Source: a virus | IMG/VR virus record: IMGVR_UViG_3300035661_000184 | Coordinates: 1 to 35,881 of that record | DNA length: 35,881 bases | Reading direction: 5' to 3' (one strand) | Shown here: one piece after another, positions 11,969-34,813 of the stretch | Numbering within the stretch: the first letter of the stretch is position 1 | Layout of the letters: the number at the start of each line of letters is the position of its first letter | Made by a program: the position numbers and the translations under genes | The notes under the pieces: generated by a model | What the model saw: the letters and a program-made list of their open reading frames with translations, nothing else | The model's database searches: none | What the model was told of the DNA's origin: nothing

Positions 11969-12553
11969 ATGGGACTTTTAGATGCTGCTAGTTCTGCGCT
12001 TAGTTATAGTGGAGGAAATAATACCCAAAATACTGGTGCATCATTAATTGATACTATACTTAGTAAGTCCTGGGCTATGTCATGTATGTATTCTGTGACA
12101 GATTTTAAATTAAATAATAATAAGGATATTGATCTTGATATAGGCAAAACAAATAACTTTGATGCTTATGTAACAAATGTTACAATAAATCCTATAACTT
12201 GGCAACCAATACAAGAATATATTGGAGGACAATGGTCTTATACTAATGGTAGAGATGAACTAAAACAAGTAGATATAACACTCAGACTAACAAATGGTTT
12301 ATATTTTTATACAATGATTCTTAATACAATGAGAACCTTAAAAGATGATTATCCAGATAATCAAAAATGGTCAATAACTATTCAATCGATGGAGAATACC
12401 AAAAATTTTAGTGGTTCTGGTATCCAACTTGAAGGTAATAAAAAAACAGTGCTAACAACATCAACTGCATTATTAACCAATATATCTAGTATAACATTTG
12501 ATGCAAATAATAAAGAAGTAATTACATTTGTTGTTACCTTTATGTATACATAA
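11969..12553 (+). CDS. Tube-like structural protein (first of four tandem genes)
   Basis: A 194-residue, beta-rich protein with a Gly/Ser-rich N-terminus. The middle (VTNVTINPITWQPIQEYIGGQW) and the C-terminal strand pair (SSITFDANNKEVITFVVTFMYT) end in the way gp19-type tube proteins end, with an aromatic and Thr-rich last strand. The resemblance to the three following genes is weaker than theirs to each other, so a tube-related fold is an inference. It starts behind a late promoter with ribosome site AGAAGG and leads a four-gene plus-strand operon. Confidence 0.6.
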   Translation: MGLLDAASSALSYSGGNNTQNTGASLIDTILSKSWAMSCMYSVTDFKLNNNKDIDLDIGKTNNFDAYVTNVTINPITWQPIQEYIGGQWSYTNGRDELKQVDITLRLTNGLYFYTMILNTMRTLKDDYPDNQKWSITIQSMENTKNFSGSGIQLEGNKKTVLTTSTALLTNISSITFDANNKEVITFVVTFMYT

Positions 12554-12570
12554 GCAGAATAGGAGACAGA

Positions 12571-13317
12571 ATGATAAATAGACTTGATTTAAAACTAGGA
12601 AATGGAGCTAGACCTTACCAATATAAGGTATCAATTACTCTACCTAGTATTGTATCAGAAACACTAAAGTTAGATAACCGAACAGTTGATACTTTATGTA
12701 GACGTGCTAATGTTCCTGATATGATGATGGAGCAATTTTCATTATTTGTTCAAGGTAGAGAAGTAAAAATGCCTTTTGGTACAGATTCAACACATGAAAT
12801 TTCACTTTCATTCTATAATGACGAAGATTATTATATGCGTCATGTATTAGAATATTGGATGCTTACTATTGATGCATATCGATTATATAATAAAGATTTA
12901 GCTTTTTATAGCAAGTTACCACCTTCTGAGGGATTATTAGATACTATTATTGATAAAGCAACAAATCTTGCTAAATCTGTTGCAACAGATTTAGCAAGAG
13001 ATATATCAGGAGAAATAGGTAAACTTGGTGGTGATAAATTATCAACTTTCATTAATAGTGTTATTAATGAACTAAATAAAACTAACGAACCACAATTTGG
13101 TACTGTAGCAATAACACCATTAACATATAATGGTATGGAAATATGTACATATACTCTACTTAATGCTTATCCTATAAATTTATCACAGATACAATTTGCA
13201 AATGATAGTGTAGGTAGTATTTCAGAATTTGATTCTATGTTTTATTTTACTCATTATACTATTGATAAACCAACAATGCTAGATGATATACTTGGTTTTG
13301 CCAAGAAACTATTTTAA
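12571..13317 (+). CDS. Tail tube-fold protein with helical insertion
   Basis: A 248-residue protein of the gp19 type. Residues 1-105 show the core (YQYKVSITLPS, RRANVPDMMMEQFSLFVQGREVKMP, then HEISLSFYNDEDYYMRHVLEYWM). Residues of about 115-172 are an inserted helical, charged segment not present in the neighbours. The core resumes with MEICTYTLLNAYPINLSQIQF and closes with ISEFDSMFYFTHYTI. The phrase AYPI.LS.IQ recurs in the next gene as AFPIELSEIQ. Length exceeds T4 gp19 (163 residues) because of the insertion. Possible roles are a tube-end or baseplate-proximal ring. Confidence 0.72.
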   Translation: MINRLDLKLGNGARPYQYKVSITLPSIVSETLKLDNRTVDTLCRRANVPDMMMEQFSLFVQGREVKMPFGTDSTHEISLSFYNDEDYYMRHVLEYWMLTIDAYRLYNKDLAFYSKLPPSEGLLDTIIDKATNLAKSVATDLARDISGEIGKLGGDKLSTFINSVINELNKTNEPQFGTVAITPLTYNGMEICTYTLLNAYPINLSQIQFANDSVGSISEFDSMFYFTHYTIDKPTMLDDILGFAKKLF

Positions 13318-13329
13318 TAGAGGTAGAAT

Positions 13330-13986
13330 ATGGGTATACATAATGTTAATGAATTAAAATCAACACTAGGAGCTGGTGCTCAAGTATCTAGGTTTAGTGT
13401 TACTATACCAGTACCTATAATATTAAAGGGTATAGCTATAGTAAATAAAGTATTAAATTCAATACCACTATTAAATGAACTAATAACATATACTGGTAAT
13501 ACTGGTACATCACACTTACCACAAAATCAGATAAAGGTTCTAGCTAAAGCTTCCACTATACCAGGAAAAAGAGTAAATACTATAGATGTTTGGGATAGAG
13601 GTCATAAATATATTATAAGAGATGTATCAGACTTTGATCATAGATGGGCAGTAACTTTTTATAATACTGAAACATTAGACTTAAGACTGTTATTTGAAAC
13701 TTGGATGTATGAGTTAGACAGATTTGATTCATCAACATTACGAACACCATTTGTTACAAATAATATGGGTGTTGGTGTCCCAAAATTTATGGCTAGCCTA
13801 AATCCTGGTTATATGGTTGATATGCAAATTTCACAAGTAGGGTGTAAAGGAGATACTGCTGTATTTGAACTAGCTCATGCATTTCCTATTGAATTAAGTG
13901 AAATACAAATGGATGCAAGTACAATAAATACAATATCTGAGTTTACTGTAACTTTTGCTTATACTAGCTGGAGTAGGTTGCAGTAG
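13330..13986 (+). CDS. Tail tube protein, gp19-like paralogue
   Basis: A 218-residue protein. It begins NVNELKSTLGAGAQVSRFSV, closely matching the next gene (ITDLKNVLGQGAKVDRFTI). It then has KASTIPGKRVNTIDVWDRGHKYIIRD, WAVTFYNTETLDLRLLFETWM, AFPIELSEIQMDASTINTIS and a final strand FTVTFAYTSW. These are the standard gp19 tube elements. An extra segment of about 35 residues follows the N-terminus. It lies 12 bases after the previous gene with ribosome site AGAGG. Confidence 0.8.
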   Translation: MGIHNVNELKSTLGAGAQVSRFSVTIPVPIILKGIAIVNKVLNSIPLLNELITYTGNTGTSHLPQNQIKVLAKASTIPGKRVNTIDVWDRGHKYIIRDVSDFDHRWAVTFYNTETLDLRLLFETWMYELDRFDSSTLRTPFVTNNMGVGVPKFMASLNPGYMVDMQISQVGCKGDTAVFELAHAFPIELSEIQMDASTINTISEFTVTFAYTSWSRLQ

Positions 13987-14010
13987 ATTTCAGTAATTTA
14001 CAGTAGATTA

Positions 14011-14018
14011 TATAAATA
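14011..14018 (+). promoter_or_regulatory. T4-type late promoter for the short tube gene
   Basis: TATAAATA 29 bases before the ATG at 14048. It gives this tube gene, the likely major tube protein, transcription independent of the three genes before it. Confidence 0.6.
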
Positions 14019-14047
14019 TTACAATAATAAAAATATAGAGGTACAAT

Positions 14048-14566
14048 ATGGCATTATATACAATTACAGATTTAAAAAATGTGTTAGGACAGGGAGCAAA
14101 AGTTGATAGATTCACTATTGATCTTAGTGTACCAGCTGGTAATGCAGCACTTACATTAGGAACTACTGGTGGTGTATTAGTTAAGTCTTCTGCTTTTCCT
14201 GATAAACAAATAGGTAAGTGTGAAGTTTGGGAACAAGGACGCAAATTAATTATTCCTGGAAATACTGAATTTACAAATGAATGGTCAGTTACATTCTATC
14301 AGACTGCTGATCATAATTTACGTAAAATGTTTATTAAGTGGATGAGTGAGATTGATGATTATGCTACTAATAACCATAACTGTAACCCTACTCAATATAT
14401 GGTTGATGGTAAAGTTCAACAATTATCTTGTGAGGGTGTAGTAAGTGCAGAATATTTGTTTCATAATATGTACCCAAGCCATATAGCAGAAGTTGTTGTT
14501 GATGGACAAACAATTAATACTATTGAAGAATTTCAAGTTACTTTTACTTTCTCTCACTGGGAATAA
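14048..14566 (+). CDS. gp19: Major tail tube protein, gp19-like
   Basis: A 172-residue protein, the same size as T4 gp19 (163 residues) and the most compact of the four tandem genes. It has DLKNVLGQGAKVDRF, SSAFPDKQIGKCEVWEQGRKLIIPG, WSVTFYQTADHNLRKMFIKWM, MYPSHIAEVVVDGQTINTIE and the terminal strand FQVTFTFSHWE. It alone has a dedicated late promoter directly upstream, which fits high expression of the main tube subunit. Which of the tandem copies builds the main tube is inferred from size and promoter only. Confidence 0.85.
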   Translation: MALYTITDLKNVLGQGAKVDRFTIDLSVPAGNAALTLGTTGGVLVKSSAFPDKQIGKCEVWEQGRKLIIPGNTEFTNEWSVTFYQTADHNLRKMFIKWMSEIDDYATNNHNCNPTQYMVDGKVQQLSCEGVVSAEYLFHNMYPSHIAEVVVDGQTINTIEEFQVTFTFSHWE

Positions 14567-14609: not shown

Positions 14610-15746
14610 CTATTTTAGTGTTATTGAGAACTTCTCAATAACATCTTCTATAGGGATTGTATTGCTTACTCTTATAAATGCCTTAATTTTAACGGTTTGA
14701 TTAAGTATATTATTAGTACCAAAACTTTGTTGTTTTGAATAATTGCCAATATTTAAGTTAATTTGGATATCTCTACCTTGACAATGGTAATTATCTGGCA
14801 TTGGGTTTGTTTTTTCTACTTCTGTTAATACTAATTTATATTTTTCATTAAACTTACTGTCTGCTTTATCACCCACTAAACCTACAAGTGACTCTCGTAC
14901 TTTAATAATTTCATATAATGGACCAACAACAATAATAACTGGTACACTTGCAATAACTGCCAGAGTATCTTCACCAAAAAACTTCTTTTTACAGTTTGTA
15001 GGAATATAATAGCTATTAACATAATTGTTAAAATATTCTTGGTCTATACTAGCTGAAATATCAAAATAATAATCTGTAAAATTACTACCTTCTTTTTTAT
15101 ATAAATATACAATTTCCGTATGGGTATGTTCTAATAACTCATTGGTTGTAATTACTTTATTATCTTTGTCTATTGTTGCTATTTCAGATATATACTCTTT
15201 TTGTATATTATGGTTTGTTATATCATCTTTTAGCATACCAATATTAGATATGTTAGCATTTTTTAGTGTAATTTCAGTATTTGGTTTTGAAGCATTAGCT
15301 GTAGCTAGTGCAATATTCTTCTTAACTGTATTATATAGTTTTTCTTTTTCCTCTTTGTTTACAATGACTGTTTCTGTAATGAAATAGTTTTTATCTTTTA
15401 GAGTTTCAGATTTAATAATAACTGATGACGATATAGTGTTAAATATTGAAGACTTAGTAGTAAATGCATTAACAGTTTTGTTAGTTTTGTCAGTTTCGTT
15501 AGTGCTATTTTCAATATATTTAGAAGAGGATAAAACATAAGCACCAATATCATCAGCTACATATTGTCTTGTACTGTCTATACAATACTTTCGTGCTGTG
15601 CTTTGTGAATCAGAATCTCCAAGCTTATAATCCATACTAATTTCATAATATATATTTTTAGCATCTTCATGTTTATTATTAACTACTAGTTGTGCATATA
15701 CTGATGTAGTTAACATAAAACATATAGCAAATACAATCTTTTTCAT
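14610..15746 (-). CDS. Exported protein of unknown function, secreted partner of the LPP20-like lipoprotein
   Basis: The reading frame opens further upstream at a TTG, but the ATG at 15746 is the real start: it follows a purine-rich ribosome region (GAGAGATAAGAAG) and begins a clear Sec signal peptide (MKKIVFAICFMLTTSVYA, then Q). The mature protein has about 360 residues, with an N-terminal stretch ARKYCIDSTRQYVADDIGAYVLSS, many Thr/Asn/Ser, and a hydrophobic segment near residue 260 (TLAVIASVPVIIVVGPLYEII) that may be a membrane anchor or a buried strand. It follows the lipoprotein gene in the same direction behind its own copy of the conserved promoter block. Function unknown; action in the periplasm or at the envelope is likely. 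Confidence 0.7.
   Translation of the reverse strand: MKKIVFAICFMLTTSVYAQLVVNNKHEDAKNIYYEISMDYKLGDSDSQSTARKYCIDSTRQYVADDIGAYVLSSSKYIENSTNETDKTNKTVNAFTTKSSIFNTISSSVIIKSETLKDKNYFITETVIVNKEEKEKLYNTVKKNIALATANASKPNTEITLKNANISNIGMLKDDITNHNIQKEYISEIATIDKDNKVITTNELLEHTHTEIVYLYKKEGSNFTDYYFDISASIDQEYFNNYVNSYYIPTNCKKKFFGEDTLAVIASVPVIIVVGPLYEIIKVRESLVGLVGDKADSKFNEKYKLVLTEVEKTNPMPDNYHCQGRDIQINLNIGNYSKQQSFGTNNILNQTVKIKAFIRVSNTIPIEDVIEKFSITLK
15474..15500 (+). repeat. 9-base tandem repeat in the exported-protein gene
   Basis: Three units of AGTTTTGTT with single changes, giving a Thr-Asn-Lys/Asp-Lys-like repeat in the protein. Confidence 0.8.
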
Positions 15747-15766
15747 CTTCTTATCTCTCTTTCTCT

Positions 15767-15800
15767 CTTTTGGTACCAAACGGTACCACAGAAACCCTTA
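15767..15800 (-). promoter_or_regulatory. Divergent copy of the conserved accessory promoter block
   Basis: Minus strand: TTAAGGGTTTCTGTGGTAC, then a changed -10 position (TACCGT) and a repeated GGTACC. Less conserved than the copies near 20.4, 23.1, 26.3 and 33.9 kb. It overlaps the end of the lipoprotein gene. Confidence 0.4.
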
Positions 15801-16433
15801 ATTTCTACTTGTATTAGTATCTACACTTTCTTGTTTTTCGTTCTGTTCAGCTTTATATTCTTTAACTTCAGTTTTTAAATCAGCAAATGAACGTTCTGCC
15901 ATAAGTTGAGTTTGGACATACTTTGTCATTTTTGCATTACCAATTTTATATTCTGCAATCATTTCACTATTAATAGCTACTTGAACAAACATCTCACCAT
16001 CATTTGCAATATAAACTTCTTTTACAACAACACCTTGTAACAATTCTGATGATACTTGTGATGTAGTTTGTGAACTAAGTTCTTCAATCATTGAGTCTTT
16101 ATTACCAGTTACACGATAATAATCACGTACAAGTGAATCAACTTTTGTTTTAAGTTTACGACCAAGATTCATCTCAGCAATAGCTACTGCTTGATTTTTT
16201 TGTTGAATATAACTTTGTCCTTTATAAGTAGCAGACCCAACAGCAACCATACCTTCATCTTGATTAACCCATTTTGGAAGGTTATTACTTTTTTCTATAA
16301 GTGCATTTGTAGCTGGAGAAGCATTATAGTTCTTTGAAGAACAACCCGTAACAGTAACACTTAGTACACTTAGTACACTTAACATACTTAACATAGCAGT
16401 AGCTGTAATAGCAGTAATCATTTTAGTTTTCAT
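15798..16433 (-). CDS. LPP20-like lipoprotein
   Basis: The ATG at 16433, behind the purine-rich GAGAGATAAA, gives a lipoprotein signal of about 30 residues ending in a lipobox (VTVTGC followed by SS); the frame extends upstream only through a TTG. The mature protein has the LPP20 pattern seen in Helicobacter and relatives: LPKWVNQDEGMVAVGSAT, then QQKNQAVAIAEMNLGRKLKTKVDSLVRDYYRVTG, then SSELLQGVVVKEVYIANDGEMFVQVAI. The C-terminal 40 residues are charged and probably disordered. LPP20 proteins are exported lipoproteins of Campylobacterota envelopes, so this is probably a host-derived gene. A role in blocking superinfection or altering the envelope is speculation. Confidence 0.85.
   Translation of the reverse strand: MKTKMITAITATAMLSMLSVLSVLSVTVTGCSSKNYNASPATNALIEKSNNLPKWVNQDEGMVAVGSATYKGQSYIQQKNQAVAIAEMNLGRKLKTKVDSLVRDYYRVTGNKDSMIEELSSQTTSQVSSELLQGVVVKEVYIANDGEMFVQVAINSEMIAEYKIGNAKMTKYVQTQLMAERSFADLKTEVKEYKAEQNEKQESVDTNTSRN
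16353..16397 (+). repeat. 9-base tandem repeat in a signal peptide
   Basis: About five units of consensus TAGTACACT. They encode the Ser-Val-Leu/Ser-Met-Leu repeats of the lipoprotein signal peptide, so unit number would set the length of its hydrophobic core. Confidence 0.85.
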
Positions 16434-16452: not shown

Positions 16453-16488
16453 TTATTTCCCGTAGCGTAGCACAAAACCCCTTAAAAG
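16453..16488 (-). promoter_or_regulatory. Divergent copy of the conserved accessory promoter block
   Basis: Minus strand: CTTTTAAGGGGTTTTGTG as in the other copies, but the -10 position reads TACGCT, followed by ACGGGAAATAAAAAG. It precedes the lipoprotein gene. Confidence 0.45.
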
Positions 16489-18252: not shown

Positions 18253-18918
18253 CTAACTATATAATACTTCTTTCTTCTTGATAGCAACTGCTAGTTCAAT
18301 TACTTTCCTAGCATTTTGCTTACCAACTTTACAATACCCTTTATATCCACTAATAGCATCATATGTTTTACCATCATAGTGTAACATATAATGTTTAATA
18401 ATAAATGAACTTGCATCAATACTAACTATTGGATTAGATAAGTCAGATATATTTTTGATAATACCAGCTGCTTTTAAATCATTAGCCCAAACATTAATAT
18501 TTGTTCCAGTCATTCCTTTATCACAAGCTAATAAATGCTTTGGGTTTGCTACATAATTTGATTCAGTATCTATTAATGCAGCTTGAATATATGGAGAATA
18601 CCCATCTTTTTCAGAATTGTTAACAATTCTAACTGCATATGAGTTAGCAACTACTTTAGTTAGCTTTGGGTTAGAATCTAAGATGAAATCAACGATAACT
18701 TCTTTTTGTATTTCTTCTTTGGTTAGATCTTTGACTACTTGTTTAACATCACTTGTATTATATGTAGCATATGTAGTAGATGTAGTAGACATATCACTAT
18801 TTTTAACTGTGTTAACTGTAACTGTTCGTTCAGAATTACTATTTGCTTTTACACTCACAACTACAATAGTTAGTGATACAATAAGTAATACCCAGTTTTT
18901 TATTTTTTTCTTATCCAT
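18253..18918 (-). CDS. Lytic transglycosylase-like endolysin with N-terminal membrane anchor
   Basis: A 221-residue protein. Residues 8-25 form a hydrophobic segment (WVLLIVSLTIVVVSV) after a lysine-rich start, so it is a signal-anchor or signal peptide. Residues of about 105-215 look like a goose-lysozyme/SLT domain: YSPYIQAALIDTESNYVANP with Glu 119 as the likely catalytic acid, then GMTGTNINVWANDL, and SGYKGYCKVGKQN near the end. It probably cleaves the glycan strands of host peptidoglycan. A signal-arrest-release endolysin would fit the N-terminus. It lies after the MoxR gene and is convergent with terminase. A 27-base stretch of three 9-base repeats encodes the Thr/Ser-rich part near residue 45. 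Confidence 0.72.
   Translation of the reverse strand: MDKKKIKNWVLLIVSLTIVVVSVKANSNSERTVTVNTVKNSDMSTTSTTYATYNTSDVKQVVKDLTKEEIQKEVIVDFILDSNPKLTKVVANSYAVRIVNNSEKDGYSPYIQAALIDTESNYVANPKHLLACDKGMTGTNINVWANDLKAAGIIKNISDLSNPIVSIDASSFIIKHYMLHYDGKTYDAISGYKGYCKVGKQNARKVIELAVAIKKKEVLYS
18762..18788 (+). repeat. 9-base tandem repeat in the transglycosylase gene
   Basis: Three units of ATGTAGTAG (first one ATGTAGCAT), encoding a Ser/Thr/Tyr-rich linker between the membrane segment and the enzyme domain. Confidence 0.85.
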
Positions 18919-23047: not shown

Positions 23048-23084
23048 TCTTTATCCCGGATTGTACCACAAAGCCCCTTAAAAG
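23048..23084 (-). promoter_or_regulatory. Conserved accessory promoter block
   Basis: Minus strand: CTTTTAAGGGGCTTTGTGG, TACAAT (23060-23065), then CCGGGATAAAGA. It leads the acidic protein, small membrane protein and metallopeptidase/VWA genes. Confidence 0.6.
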
Positions 23085-23536: not shown

Positions 23537-23794
23537 TTATAGTTTTATAAACAACTCTGGAAATTGTTGTTCTGCTTGTGTTAGTGTTATACAATTATTT
23601 GGTAATATATATTTTATTTCATCAGTAGTTATAACGTTTTTTGATATAAATTTGTCTATATATGTACTCTGTAAAATATCAATATTATAAAATAATGTAC
23701 CAGAATAGTTAGTTATTTTTGTAATCTTACCAATAGAGTAGTTTTCTGGTGCTTCCATATGGTTAGCTAATACAATATCATCAAGTTTATACAT
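23537..23794 (-). CDS. Small protein of unknown function with PELF C-terminal tail
   Basis: An 85-residue protein. The first 70 residues are beta-rich (MYKLDDIVLANH, then ENYSIGKITKITNYSGTLFYNIDI), similar in look to SH3-like barrels, but I cannot assign a family. It ends LTQAEQQFPELFIKL, the shared tail motif. Its start overlaps the end of the upstream leucine-rich-repeat gene by 8 bases. Confidence 0.72.
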   Translation of the reverse strand: MYKLDDIVLANHMEAPENYSIGKITKITNYSGTLFYNIDILQSTYIDKFISKNVITTDEIKYILPNNCITLTQAEQQFPELFIKL

Positions 23795-24140
23795 ATATAA
23801 AATATTCTGGATAGTTTTCTCTCAGTATTTCTGAATTAGTATTAGACCAATCATATAGTGGAAAATTCTCTGGGATATGTTTAAGGGATGAACAATCACG
23901 GAACATACCAACCATAATAATTACTTTTGATGTATCAAATTTTGGAACTTCTTTAAGTTCTGAACAACCAAAGAACATATCTGACATATCAGTTACTTTT
24001 GATGTATCCAAGAGAGGAATTCCTACAAGTGATATACAATTATTAAACATATATGACATATCAGTTATATTAGAATAATCAATACCTGATATATCTTCGT
24101 TATTTAAAATTTTATCTCTAAGTTCTTCTCTAGTTATCAA
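23787..24140 (-). CDS. BspA-like leucine-rich repeat protein (DUF285-type), short copy
   Basis: A 117-residue protein. After an N-terminal segment REELRDKILNNEDISGIDYSN come about three BspA-type repeats (for example LKEVPKFDTSKVIIMVGMF), then IPENFPLYDWSNTNSEI and the shared tail LRENYPEYFIYV. The N- and C-terminal parts match the next upstream gene closely, so the two are paralogues with different repeat number. No signal peptide or cell-wall anchor is present, so unlike the surface proteins known from bacteria this one should act inside the cell, probably in protein binding. Confidence 0.82.
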   Translation of the reverse strand: MITREELRDKILNNEDISGIDYSNITDMSYMFNNCISLVGIPLLDTSKVTDMSDMFFGCSELKEVPKFDTSKVIIMVGMFRDCSSLKHIPENFPLYDWSNTNSEILRENYPEYFIYV

Positions 24141-24167
24141 TTTTAATCCTTTAACTTAGAATTTAGA

Positions 24168-24746
24168 CTAATTTTCAGACCATATAAATAATTCTGGGTA
24201 ATTTTTTCTTAATATTTCTGAACCTGTTTCAGACCAATCATATAATAGAAAATTCTCTGGAATATTTTCCAGTGATGAACACCCAGCGAACATATTATGC
24301 ATATCTTTAACTTTTGATGTATCTAATTTAGGAACTTCTGTAAGTGATGAACAACCTTGGAACATAATACGCATATTTGTTACTTCTGATGTATCGAATA
24401 GTGGAACTTCTTTGAGTGATTTACATCTATAGAACATACCATACATATTAGTTACTTCTGATGTATCGAATAGTGGAACTTCTTTGAGTGATTTACATCC
24501 AGTGAACACATACTGCATATTGATTACGCTTGATGTATCAAATTCTGGAACTTCTACAAGTGATGAACACTCAGCGAACATACTACGCATATCTGTTACC
24601 TTTGATGTATCTAATTTAGGAACTTCTGTAAGTGATGAACACTCATAGAACATCTCAGACATATCTGTGATATGAGAATAATCAATGCCCGAAATGTCTT
24701 TTTTATTTAAAATTTTATCTCTTAATTGTTTTTTAGTTATTTTCAA
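24168..24746 (-). CDS. BspA-like leucine-rich repeat protein (DUF285-type), long copy
   Basis: A 192-residue protein with five to six repeats of 24 residues, pattern C-S-S-L-x-E-V-P-x-x-D-T-S-x-V-T-x-M-x-x-M-F. The repeats at 24379-24427 and 24451-24499 are identical over 49 bases, a sign of recent duplication. It begins KKQLRDKILNKKDISGIDYSH and ends SEILRKNYPELFIWSEN, both shared with the shorter neighbouring copy. No export signal. Regular repeats of this kind form a curved binding surface; the target is unknown. Confidence 0.85.
   Translation of the reverse strand: MKITKKQLRDKILNKKDISGIDYSHITDMSEMFYECSSLTEVPKLDTSKVTDMRSMFAECSSLVEVPEFDTSSVINMQYVFTGCKSLKEVPLFDTSEVTNMYGMFYRCKSLKEVPLFDTSEVTNMRIMFQGCSSLTEVPKLDTSKVKDMHNMFAGCSSLENIPENFLLYDWSETGSEILRKNYPELFIWSEN
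24379..24499. repeat. Exact 49-base duplication within the leucine-rich repeat gene
   Basis: Bases 24379-24427 and 24451-24499 are identical and offset by 72 bases, one 24-residue protein repeat. Confidence 0.9.
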
Positions 24747-24781: not shown

Positions 24782-25060
24782 TTACAAATATCTGCACTGG
24801 TTATTAAGAGCAAACTGTTCAATACCTTTAAACAGTTTTAACTTTTTGGTATCTTCATTATCTGCATCTTTTATAGTTTGATATCCTATAAGTTTTTCAG
24901 CAACATCAAAAGCACAACTACAAGCATTTTGTGACACTTTATACTCTTTAGAACACCCTTTAGAATAATCTTTTTTAAAGTGTATTCTTTCAAGAGAATT
25001 TGCTGATACTGTGGATATTATAGGTGCTAATACTAATACTACTAAAAATACTTTTCTCAT
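24782..25060 (-). CDS. Small secreted cysteine-containing protein
   Basis: A 92-residue protein with a Sec signal peptide (MRKVFLVVLVLAPIISTVSA, cleavage after Ala 20 or so). The mature part has four cysteines (GCSKEYKVSQNACSCAF and NNQCRYL), suited to two disulfides in the periplasm. It contains a helix AFDVAEKLIGYQTIKDADNEDTKK. Function unknown. It sits between genes that carry the shared C-terminal tail but does not carry it itself, which suggests the tail belongs to cytoplasmic proteins. Confidence 0.78.
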   Translation of the reverse strand: MRKVFLVVLVLAPIISTVSANSLERIHFKKDYSKGCSKEYKVSQNACSCAFDVAEKLIGYQTIKDADNEDTKKLKLFKGIEQFALNNQCRYL

Positions 25061-31019: not shown

Positions 31020-31047
31020 ACAATCTAGAGGTTAGCCTCTAGATTGT
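31020..31047. terminator. Bidirectional hairpin, overlapping the endonuclease gene end
   Basis: A perfect 12-bp stem, ACAATCTAGAGG (31020-31031) and CCTCTAGATTGT (31036-31047), with loop TTAG. It lies 16 bases after the sheath stop and contains the last codons and the stop of the convergent endonuclease gene. The T-run is weak, so it may act mostly as an RNA end protector. Confidence 0.65.
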
Positions 31048-32716
31048 ATTTCCACTTAACCTTACCACAATCCCATATTCTATCGTACCCCAAAGCTTTC
31101 ATATTTTCATATTCAGTAAGCTCTTTACAAAATTCATTTGGATACTTGCTCTTTATCCTAGATAGCATAAAATTAGACTTATGGAACTTCTTTCTAATAT
31201 TGCTTTTGTGTATATATTCATAGCTAGGCATTACATCGTGAACTTTAACAAACCCAAGAGTTTCATACAATCCTCCACCAAACCAACGATTATCTGAAAA
31301 ACTAGTAATTGGTTTATCTGAGTGCTCTTTGTGTTCTTTGTGCTCTTTGTGCTCTTTAAGAAAATGCTTAAATAGTTTAGACGCTCCACCTACTACATTA
31401 GTATTAAGTTTAGACACAAATCTAACTAGTTCATATTCTTCTTTCTTATTTGTAAAACACATAACTGATACTAGTTCATCATTGTAATATAGTCCATATC
31501 TTATACTAGCAGAAACACTTCCTTGAATATGACTAGCATCTAAAAACACATTGCATATATCATTTGATACATCTACAATTTTACACTTTCTTGCAAAGAT
31601 ATTATTATTTGTTAATCCCAGTCTATTCTTGAGCATACTAGTAACAATCTCTGTTTTTCGCCAATCAATAGAATCAAAATTTAGCAGACTAATATTGTTT
31701 GTTTTACACATCAAGAATTTGTTATAGTGGTATTTTTGACCTTTAGGGTATTTTGCATTCATACCAAAGCTTGTTTCAGTATGCCAATATATTCCATTAT
31801 ATTCAATTGCAATATTTTTACTAGGTATAAAAACATCTAACTCATATGGTGGTATAATATCCCAACACCCACTTTTATAGTCAATGTTGAGACTAGTTAA
31901 TAAATTTTGGAGTTCAAGTTCTTGACTAGATGTGTAAGGGTTGCACTGTAAACATTTAGTAATACCATCCTTAAAATCACTATATATCCGCTTAAACCTA
32001 TGACCATTTAAGCATTCAACTTCTAATCCACTAGCTAAATTATCAGAAAGTACCTTGAAACCTAAACTACCCAAGTATGATACTTTTTGGTCTTGAACAC
32101 ATTGAGTACACTGTTTTGTTCGCTCGAATAAGCCAAAAGGTCTTTTAAACCTATGACCATTTAAACATTCAACTTCTAAATCATCAGCAAGATTCTCAGA
32201 AACTACTGTATAACCTAGGCTTTTTATGTATTCTATTCTTTCTTCATCCTTACATATAGGGCAAACAGGGCATCGCTTAAGATGACTTATTTCTTTTGTA
32301 AATCTGTGACCCTTTGAACATTCTAGCTCAAGATTTTTAGTAATGGTTGTAGATATAATAGTAAAACCTAGACTCTTTACAAATTCTTTCTTTTCATTAT
32401 TAGTACACTCCAAACATTTTGTAGAACCTTCCTTAAATAGACTAAAAGGTCTTTTAAACCTATGACCATTTAAACATTCAACTTCTAAATCATCAGCAAG
32501 ATTCTCAGAAACTACTGTATAACCTAAATTCTTTAAGTATTCTATTTTTTCTTCTTGTCCACACTCAAAACAATTGGTTGTACGCTGCAAATTACTAAAA
32601 GGTCTTTTAAACCTATGACCCTTTGAACATTCTAGCTCAAGATTTTTAGCAAAAGTTGTAGATATTGGAGTAAAGCCTAGACTTTTTATATATTTTATTT
32701 TTTCTTCAATAATCAT
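31025..32716 (-). CDS. EDxHD-type homing endonuclease with five zinc-ribbon repeats
   Basis: A 563-residue protein. Residues 1-258 hold five zinc-ribbon-like repeats of about 50 residues (pattern LGxTxxSxxxAxxLExECxxGHRFKRP... CxxC). From residue 263 a Vsr-like nuclease domain follows: SSQELELQNLL (Glu 266), YELDVFIPSKNIAIEYNGIYWHTE (Asp 294, His 312), which is the EDxHD layout of phage homing endonucleases such as I-Bth0305I. The C-terminus (HKSNIRKKFHKSNFMLSRI, then MKALGYDRIWDCGKVKWKYN) is typical of such phage enzymes. Repeat 2 and repeat 4 are identical over 28 residues. Free-standing, opposite to tail sheath, so probably a mobile gene. Confidence 0.87.
   Translation of the reverse strand: MIIEEKIKYIKSLGFTPISTTFAKNLELECSKGHRFKRPFSNLQRTTNCFECGQEEKIEYLKNLGYTVVSENLADDLEVECLNGHRFKRPFSLFKEGSTKCLECTNNEKKEFVKSLGFTIISTTITKNLELECSKGHRFTKEISHLKRCPVCPICKDEERIEYIKSLGYTVVSENLADDLEVECLNGHRFKRPFGLFERTKQCTQCVQDQKVSYLGSLGFKVLSDNLASGLEVECLNGHRFKRIYSDFKDGITKCLQCNPYTSSQELELQNLLTSLNIDYKSGCWDIIPPYELDVFIPSKNIAIEYNGIYWHTETSFGMNAKYPKGQKYHYNKFLMCKTNNISLLNFDSIDWRKTEIVTSMLKNRLGLTNNNIFARKCKIVDVSNDICNVFLDASHIQGSVSASIRYGLYYNDELVSVMCFTNKKEEYELVRFVSKLNTNVVGGASKLFKHFLKEHKEHKEHKEHSDKPITSFSDNRWFGGGLYETLGFVKVHDVMPSYEYIHKSNIRKKFHKSNFMLSRIKSKYPNEFCKELTEYENMKALGYDRIWDCGKVKWKYNLEANL
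31323..31358 (+). repeat. 9-base tandem repeat in the homing endonuclease gene
   Basis: Four units of TGCTCTTTG with one change, encoding Lys-Glu-His repeats between the nuclease core and the C-terminal domain. Confidence 0.9.
32135..32527. repeat. Duplicated zinc-ribbon unit in the endonuclease gene
   Basis: Bases 32135-32218 and 32444-32527 encode the same 28 residues with very few base differences. The repeats between and next to them also match pairwise (1 with 3), so a two-repeat block was duplicated. Confidence 0.85.
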
Positions 32717-33897: not shown

Positions 33898-33933
33898 TCT
33901 TTATCCCGGATTGTACCACAAAACCCCTTAAAG
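33898..33933 (-). promoter_or_regulatory. Conserved accessory promoter block
   Basis: Minus strand: CCTTTAAGGGGTTTTGTGG, TACAAT (33910-33915), CCGGGATAAAGA. It overlaps the last codons of smpB and leads the gene at 33559-33882. Confidence 0.6.
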
Positions 33934-34383
33934 GCCCCTTGCACTATTCATCTTAATATCTTTTTCTTTTAAATCATGACGTTTATCATAATTTGTTTTT
34001 CCTTTACATAATGCTAGTGTTAATTTACACAAGCCATTAGTATTAATATAGATATCAAGAGGTACTATTGTCAAATGTTGGTTAAATTTAATTTCATTAG
34101 CTAATTTTCTTATTTCTTTCTTGTGTAGTAATAATTTTCTGTCTCTTTCTTCAGCAACATCGACATAAAACACAGCATCTACATATTTTTGAATATTCAT
34201 ACCAAACAAAAATATTTCGTTATTAATAATTCTAGCAAATGATTTTTGAATACTGAACTTTTTATTTATTATTTGTTTTATCTCATAGGATTGCAATACT
34301 ATCCCAGCTTCTAATTTTAGTAGTATATCATAGTCAAAAGTTGCTCTTTTATTTTGTTGTAGTATTTTTTGAGTATGAGACAT
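33928..34383 (-). CDS. smpB: SsrA-binding protein SmpB
   Basis: A 151-residue protein, the normal length of bacterial SmpB. It keeps the family landmarks: NKRATFDYDILLKLEAGIVLQSYEIKQI at the start, SFARIINNEIFLFGMNI, RDRKLLLHKKEIRKL, LTIVPLDIYI, and the C-terminal KGKTNYDKRHDLKEKD. The last is the tail that enters the decoding centre in place of mRNA. SmpB carries tmRNA to stalled ribosomes. Its start is 113 bases after the 3' end of the phage tmRNA gene, with ribosome site AAGGA, so both may be on one late transcript. Replacement of GTEVKS by QSYEIKQ in the RNA-binding face may adapt it to the phage tmRNA. Confidence 0.95.
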   Translation of the reverse strand: MSHTQKILQQNKRATFDYDILLKLEAGIVLQSYEIKQIINKKFSIQKSFARIINNEIFLFGMNIQKYVDAVFYVDVAEERDRKLLLHKKEIRKLANEIKFNQHLTIVPLDIYINTNGLCKLTLALCKGKTNYDKRHDLKEKDIKMNSARGL

Positions 34384-34600
34384 ATACTTTTCCTTGTAGC
34401 TTTTCTATAGTTAGGAGTTATTAATATAATATTAAGGCATTAAAATACTAAAAGTGTTGATTAGTTAATCACTTAATCACTTGATATTATATTATTGGTG
34501 GAGGCGCCCAGAGTCGAACTGGGTTACTAAATAATCTTCATATATTAATTTGTACAAGCTTTTTGGTCGTATGTTATAAACTTTTCAGACTAAAATCTCT

Positions 34601-34627
34601 AAAGGTTCTAAAGGTTCTAAGGTTTTC
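34601..34627 (+). repeat. 9-base repeat inside the tmRNA gene
   Basis: Two exact units of AAAGGTTCT followed by a degenerate third, in the part between the tag stop and the tRNA-like 3' domain. Confidence 0.8.
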
Positions 34628-34673
34628 TTAATCTATGCCTTTGGTAATACCGCGCATAGAACGGCACCTAACT

Positions 34674-34715
34674 TTACGCTACTGCGTAAGCTGGAATAAA
34701 ATCTGTATTGTTTGC
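34674..34715 (-). other. tmRNA tag reading frame
   Basis: Resume codon GCA, then 13 codons in all, giving ANNTDFIPAYAVA and a TAA stop. Campylobacter jejuni has ANNVKFAPAYAKAA. The phage tag keeps ANN and PAYA but ends in AVA, one residue shorter. Confidence 0.93.
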
Positions 34716-34813
34716 AGTTATATTATGAGTGAATGTTTTAAATCATTCCGGATTGCTTGATTAACATATTACACAAAAATCCAGGCGAAACCAAATCGCC
34801 CCCGACTAAGGAG

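Follow-up and report, generated by a model that had tools for sequence, protein, structure and literature searches.

We describe here two neighbouring genes of a T4-like virus: one encodes a lipoprotein (P1) whose predicted fold, modelled at low confidence, matches that of the LPP20/Tip-alpha proteins, and the other an exported protein (P2) for which the searches described below returned no relative. Phage LPP20-like lipoproteins have already been annotated, and P1 is a divergent new one that stands beside an orphan. Judged by its sequence relatives, P1 is an old, conserved phage gene and not a recent capture from a host. We tentatively propose (probability about 0.4) that P1 modifies the envelope of the infected cell, most likely for superinfection exclusion, with P2 probably serving the same end. 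The window to which all coordinates refer is the whole stretch analysed, a 35,881-base piece of the virus from IMG/VR in which terminase, sheath and tail-tube genes are present.

P1 (15798–16433, minus strand; ATG at 16433, 211 amino acids) is followed on the same strand by P2 (14610–15746, minus strand; ATG at 15746, 378 amino acids), and the pair lies between tail-tube and terminase genes that are both oppositely oriented. On the tail-tube side, four tail-tube-like genes stand in a row on the plus strand (11969–14566); the last is the tail tube (phrog_45), and the others were assigned by eye. Residues 1–30 of P1 (16344–16433, minus strand) constitute a predicted lipoprotein signal peptide, recognised from the sequence by hydropathy and a lipobox scan: the N-terminus reads MKTKMITAITATAMLSMLSVLSVLSVTVTG followed by CSS, and the lipobox (VTG-C31) falls at Cys31. 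P2 begins with a plain Sec signal of 18 residues, MKKIVFAICFMLTTSVYA (15693–15746, minus strand; sequence and hydropathy scan), which ends in VYA and is followed by Q. The hydropathy and lipobox scan covered 43 ORFs picked from the window's 65; P1 alone (1/43) has a lipobox within the first 45 residues, and five of the 43, P1 and P2 among them, have a strongly hydrophobic, non-acidic N-terminus. Clear export signals had been assigned to both proteins in the initial annotation, and they are borne out, as a signal with a lipobox in P1 and an SPI-type signal in P2, at coordinates that agree. A third small exported protein of the window (24782–25060, minus strand; 92 amino acids, signal MRKVFLVVLVLAPIISTVSA) is without a Pfam match, and its best PHROG match (E 0.17) is noise.

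By profile, the likeness of P1 to LPP20 falls short of formal membership. Against Pfam LPP20 (PF02169) the protein scores 16.2 bits (E 0.015), and in a six-frame search, in which it is the sole LPP20 match of the window, 19.2 bits; both scores lie below the curated cut-off of 25.9, and P1 is therefore not filed under PF02169. The matching stretch comprises residues 54–153 (15975–16274, minus strand). Fletchervirus homologues come somewhat nearer, at 21.2 to 22.3 bits, still below the cut-off, and they support the resemblance. Because sub-threshold LPP20 matches also appeared in 3 of 14 control genomes searched in six frames, we do not rely on the profile score alone. Neither phmmer nor a two-row profile detected a sequence match between P1 and Helicobacter pylori Lpp20, and no sequence match to H. 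pylori Tip-alpha was found. P1 also gave weak hits to YDG, Phage_Tail_Tip and ribosomal S19, which we treated as noise.

The comparison of folds outweighs this shortfall. Our model of mature P1 is of low confidence (mean pLDDT 51, three alignment rows); in a Foldseek search of the PDB with this model, the first nine matches are all H. pylori Tip-alpha or Lpp20, with E values from 5.7e-5 to 1.1e-3, and rank 10 follows at 0.14. VIA-align returned Z scores of up to 11.5 against Tip-alpha (131 residues, 3.6 Å) and of 10.3 against Lpp20 (PDB 5OK8; 103 residues, 2.3 Å, 19% identity); next come HP1454 (Z 5.8), an LPHT ring chain (4.3) and FlgT (4.0). The model, at its mean pLDDT of 51, shows the sheet of three strands crossed on one side by a helix that marks the LPP20/Tip-alpha fold, with structural matches well above noise, and the predicted lipobox places P1 with the exported lipoproteins of the Lpp20 branch. 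In a viral structure library, the best match to P1 is the 'LPP20 lipoprotein' of Campylobacter phage CP8. The initial annotation had taken P1 for an LPP20-type lipoprotein, and had named an absence of LPP20 similarity in a profile search as what would speak against this. At the Pfam cut-off that is nearly what was found; the sub-threshold profile match, the fold match and the lipobox together support the assignment, and P1 is LPP20-like by its modelled fold, without formal membership of PF02169.

Among the proteins of known structure, H. pylori Lpp20 (HP1456) is like P1 both in fold and in being a lipoprotein, the difference being that P1 is a phage gene. H. pylori Tip-alpha (HP0596) is like P1 in fold; Tip-alpha is a secreted protein and is not known to be a lipoprotein. 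Campylobacter jejuni FlgP and Vibrio FlgT belong, by the available text of PMC12222027, to the SHS2-like fold class to which we assign P1. The ring-forming β-hairpin insert of FlgP (PMC12222027) is not seen in the P1 model, which has a short helix at that place (residues 93–104 of the mature protein) in a stretch where pLDDT is below 50 (residues 83–100). FlgP is absent from the fold-match lists of P1, an absence that is uninformative. Since the fold also occurs in Vibrio FlgT (PMC12222027, as far as the text at hand goes), it is not restricted to Campylobacterota; the earlier description of LPP20 proteins as envelope lipoproteins of Campylobacterota holds as a pointer to the host group and does not hold as a restriction of the fold.

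Relatives of P1 are found almost only in Campylobacter phages. P1 matches phrog_12844 at E 1.7e-27 (97.8 bits, profile positions 7–145 of 169), the family of the Fletchervirus lipoprotein (F361_031; gene 109 of NCTC 12673; UniProt S5WJL7, the CP8 protein mentioned above). A search of 50,697 phage records with P1 as query gave 41 matches up to E 10. Among them are 39 Campylobacter phage records that match at E 4e-5 or better, mostly with about 41–43% identity, a count that leaves out a Campylobacter phage at E 2 (H75) and a Vibrio phage at E 5 (H76); with the Fletchervirus lipoprotein as query, 40 Campylobacter records match, plus one Streptococcus phage at E 1. The lipoprotein gene is present in all five Fletchervirus records examined, and the depositors of NCTC 12673 (GU296433) annotated gene 109 as resembling a putative lipoprotein of Nautilia profundicola. 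P1 and the Fletchervirus lipoprotein have in common the lipobox, the size of the folded part, the upstream block described below and about 41% identity over residues 30–161. They differ in that both the hydrophobic leader and the C-terminal tail are longer in P1, and the gene neighbours of P1 are P2 and terminase, whereas those of the Fletchervirus gene are primase and thymidine kinase.

Searches beyond the phage records gave fewer matches. No relatives were found among viral contigs with P1 alone as query; a two-row alignment returned six matches, and the Fletchervirus protein returned the identical six. Genome contigs searched with the two-row alignment yielded no P1 relatives. Plasmids of Vibrio and Pseudoalteromonas gave P1 matches of E 0.04 to 10, too weak for us to count them as relatives. 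Three phage records in which the lipoprotein gene is annotated as small pieces were left out of the alignment. In two of these, the Campylobacter phage records L004 and L006, stops or broken frames run across the lipoprotein gene; L004 is labelled Minhovirus, yet its gene neighbourhood is of the Fletchervirus type. On these sequence comparisons, P1 was most likely inherited from a phage ancestor common with Fletchervirus. A reading of the phage copy as a fresh host gene is not borne out, given the membership in phrog_12844 and the presence of the gene in 5/5 of the Fletchervirus records. In the literature searched (the NCTC 12673 genome and proteome paper lying outside it) we found annotation of the phage lipoprotein and no functional study of it, whether of exclusion, adsorption or localisation.

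The tail sheath of the window is nearest to that of Fletchervirus, with about 51% identity across 98% of its length, and the terminase is closest to Vibrio phage terminases (37%), with those of CC_R7 and other Campylobacter phages next. Because the relatives of P1 come almost only from Campylobacter phages and the sheath is nearest to Fletchervirus, the host of the window phage is likely a member of Campylobacterota, a Campylobacter relative; in this respect the initial annotation, which held that the gene points to the host group, finds support. No host genome was found among genome contigs searched with the two-row P1 alignment and with the SmpB of the window. This phage SmpB gene (33928–34383, minus strand; Pfam SmpB, 148.4 bits) adjoins a full tmRNA gene (34496–34803, minus strand; Rfam, 92.3 bits; tag ANNTDFIPAYAVA), and SmpB-like genes occur in 66 phage records, Lak megaphages included. 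Elsewhere in the window, two adjoining proteins (23787–24746, minus strand) contain DUF285/BspA-type repeats (56.2 and 126.4 bits), and a 563-residue protein (31025–32716, minus strand), for which no Pfam match appeared up to E 0.05, is built by eye of repeated Cys-containing units of ~50 residues. PADLOC matches of two neighbour genes were set aside as noise; P1 and P2 are without any PADLOC match.

P2 is an orphan by every search made with it. No relatives were found in phages, in viral contigs or in seven chosen records; plasmid matches at E 2 or worse, and the Pfam and PHROG matches, are noise; and the gene is absent from F361 and CP81, the two Fletchervirus records searched. The model of P2 has a pLDDT of 34.6, so a fold comparison is meaningless, and its fold search ended at noise level. 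That includes the comparison with HP1454 (4KZS), to which phmmer also returned no match up to E 10. A reading of P2 by eye as a second LPP20/FlgT-like protein (residues about 45–130) is possible at best; it is unsupported by Pfam, by BLASTP with P1 and by profile comparison. As P2 has no relatives, its link to P1 consists of adjacency, export and its own copy of the upstream block.

This block is the second feature that P1 and P2 have in common. A promoter-like block precedes P1 (TTAAGGGGTTTTGTGCTAC, 16467–16485, minus strand; -10-like hexamer TACGCT) and another precedes P2 (TTAAGGGTTTCTGTGGTAC, 15783–15801, minus strand), both located by motif search. Five minus-strand copies of the pattern TTAAGGNNTTN{1,3}TGNTAC make up all its occurrences in the window, and the backwards control has no copy; a sixth copy, with one base changed, is at 23081. 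For all six, which are on the minus strand, the first base of the block precedes the start of an ORF by 49 to 55 bases, the copies of P1 and P2 included, and a tight form of the pattern occurred 0 times in 100 simulated sequences. The initial annotation had described separate copies of an accessory promoter block at P1 and P2, and the six copies, set beside an empty control, confirm it. The consensus TTTTAAGGGGTTTTGTGGTACAATCCGGGATAAAGAA precedes four small ORFs (77, 95, 120 and 107 amino acids), two of which are without a PHROG match, the other two giving weak matches of unknown function; variants of it precede P1 and P2. In the four further copies (20460, 23081, 26292 and 33931, minus strand) the -10 is TACAAT, and the -10-like hexamers of the P1 and P2 blocks are poorer than these.

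The block is not confined to the window. The genomes of Fletchervirus F361 and CP81 each contain exactly two copies of the pattern. One precedes the lipoprotein gene; the other stands, in F361, ahead of a gene with an ATP-dependent DNA ligase profile and, in CP81, ahead of its presumed counterpart (the ligase profile is from F361 only). CP220, CC_R7, Vibrio phage phiKT1024 and phage SRB7757 showed no copy. At P2, motif inspection revealed a palindrome, GGTACC-GTTT-GGTACC (15772–15787, minus strand), that overlaps the place of the -10-like hexamer. P1's own block lacks this palindrome. Before the Fletchervirus lipoprotein gene, a similar element that can form a hairpin occupies the palindrome's place (L001, 5875–5910). 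It is possible that the palindrome at P2 and the like hairpin of Fletchervirus are operators.

The company that the block keeps suggests when P1 is made. We take TATAAATA to be the T4-type late box. It occurs exactly within 120 bases upstream of 8 of the 43 window ORFs, in 6 of these at -30 to -37; the block is absent from all eight (0/8), so that the two sets are separate in the window. Because TATAAATA in bulk is not enriched (22 in the window against 17.4 ± 4.5 simulated), the late-box argument rests on position. The Fletchervirus lipoprotein gene and the gp61 primase gene overlap, and thymidine kinase comes next. The primase overlap, the block in common with the DNA ligase and the separate late-box set suggest that the lipoprotein is expressed early or in the middle of infection, the promoter class of the block being assigned from motif distribution. 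In the part of PMC6024767 that describes RNA-seq of NCTC 12673, transcripts came from 166 of 171 ORFs, gene 109 not being among the five missing, and expression did not differ between the time points of the course.

The signals, the fold resemblance, the conservation among phages and the common block, all obtained with the tools named, lead us to infer a sequence of events, from the timing of expression through lipidation and membrane placement to exclusion, in which P1 and P2 would cooperate. P1 would be made ahead of the late genes, from a non-late promoter of its own, exported by Sec and then lipidated at Cys31 by host enzymes, so as to be anchored on the periplasmic side of the envelope, in all likelihood at the outer membrane. 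There it would alter the envelope such that a second phage would most likely be unable to complete adsorption or injection; possibly it binds host proteins with the same fold. P2, periplasmic or secreted, and under a like promoter, would probably work to the same end. Early envelope proteins of phages are well known to serve superinfection exclusion. Since early or middle expression is suggested, we favour envelope modification during infection over a role in lysis or in the virion.

Other readings were weighed against this one. P1, which has the fold and the signals of host Lpp20 and is conserved among Campylobacter phages, might replace a host LPP20 protein and keep the outer membrane sound, with no effect on other phages. 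In H. pylori, according to the text available for PMC11756786, a deletion of hp1456 kept wild-type bacitracin resistance; Lpp20 is therefore no major barrier factor in that species, and we hold this stabilising role to be unlikely.

A decoy role at the flagellar motor, in which P1 with P2 would bind the host's basal-disk protein FlgP, or proteins that partner with it, at the outer membrane and so alter the motor, motility or energy use of the infected cell, draws on the H. pylori system. Within the portion of PMC11756786 at hand, one operon encodes Lpp20 (HP1456) and the secreted protein HP1454, each of which bound FlgP and FapH in co-immunoprecipitation or two-hybrid experiments, and the first domain of HP1454 resembles Lpp20; the Lpp20 fold is also found in FlgP (PMC12222027, in part), and the P1 model matches Lpp20 strongly and HP1454 weakly. 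NCTC 12673, moreover, fails on motor mutants and adsorbs normally to aflagellate pse mutants (PMC8540345, in the text available). However, loss of hp1456 leaves motility and motor structure of H. pylori unchanged (PMC11756786, same portion), P2 is without detectable similarity to HP1454 and its model is not usable, and the motility-independent escape phage MutC has amino-acid changes in six other genes and not in gene 109, as far as the accessible text of PMC8540345 states. We consider the decoy role distinctly unlikely.

A part in lysis, whether as the outer-membrane component of a spanin or as a lysis-timing protein, would have P1 work with a nearby endolysin. The window does contain an SLT endolysin-like gene (18253–18918, minus strand; PF01464, 22.4 bits, cut-off 21.3) whose product has a single hydrophobic stretch at its N-terminus, a layout like that of the Firehammervirus endolysin (224 amino acids, one TMD) described in the text available from PMC7692668; P1 is a predicted lipoprotein, and in Fletchervirus the holin lies close to the lipoprotein gene. 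We nevertheless regard this part as decidedly improbable. Fletchervirus has a separate predicted spanin pair elsewhere, F352_090 and F352_091 (PMC7692668, same text), which disfavours a spanin role; replication genes come after the lipoprotein gene in Fletchervirus; and the promoter type of P1 is unlike that of late genes. Nor is there an overlapping or adjacent gene for an inner-membrane partner of P1, which does not qualify as the o-spanin of a two-component system, an i-spanin-like neighbour being absent from the window.

It is very unlikely that P1 and P2 are the phage counterpart of the Lpp20/HP1454 pair, a lipoprotein with a larger exported partner, docking on FlgP beneath the outer membrane and setting the state of the motor or envelope. 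That P1 and P2 are minor structural proteins, as their place between tail-tube and terminase genes might indicate, is scarcely credible, for Sec and lipoprotein signals would remove them from the cytoplasm, where virions are built, their promoter type differs from that of the structural genes, and the next genes on the strand of the Fletchervirus lipoprotein gene are primase and thymidine kinase.

The envelope-modifying role that we prefer for P1 bears on phages of practical interest. Fletchervirus phages are candidates for Campylobacter control, and all Fletchervirus records examined carry the lipoprotein gene. Because a relative as distant as P1 has an Lpp20/Tip-alpha fold match and the same block, we regard the lipoprotein as an old and useful phage gene, and the finding of P1 directs the search for its role to envelope and early-infection functions. 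Were P1 and P2 to form a pair like Lpp20 and HP1454, they would give one molecular path for the as yet unexplained connection of NCTC 12673 infection with motility; and if P1 binds FlgP-type proteins, phage infection would be tied to the flagellar motor.
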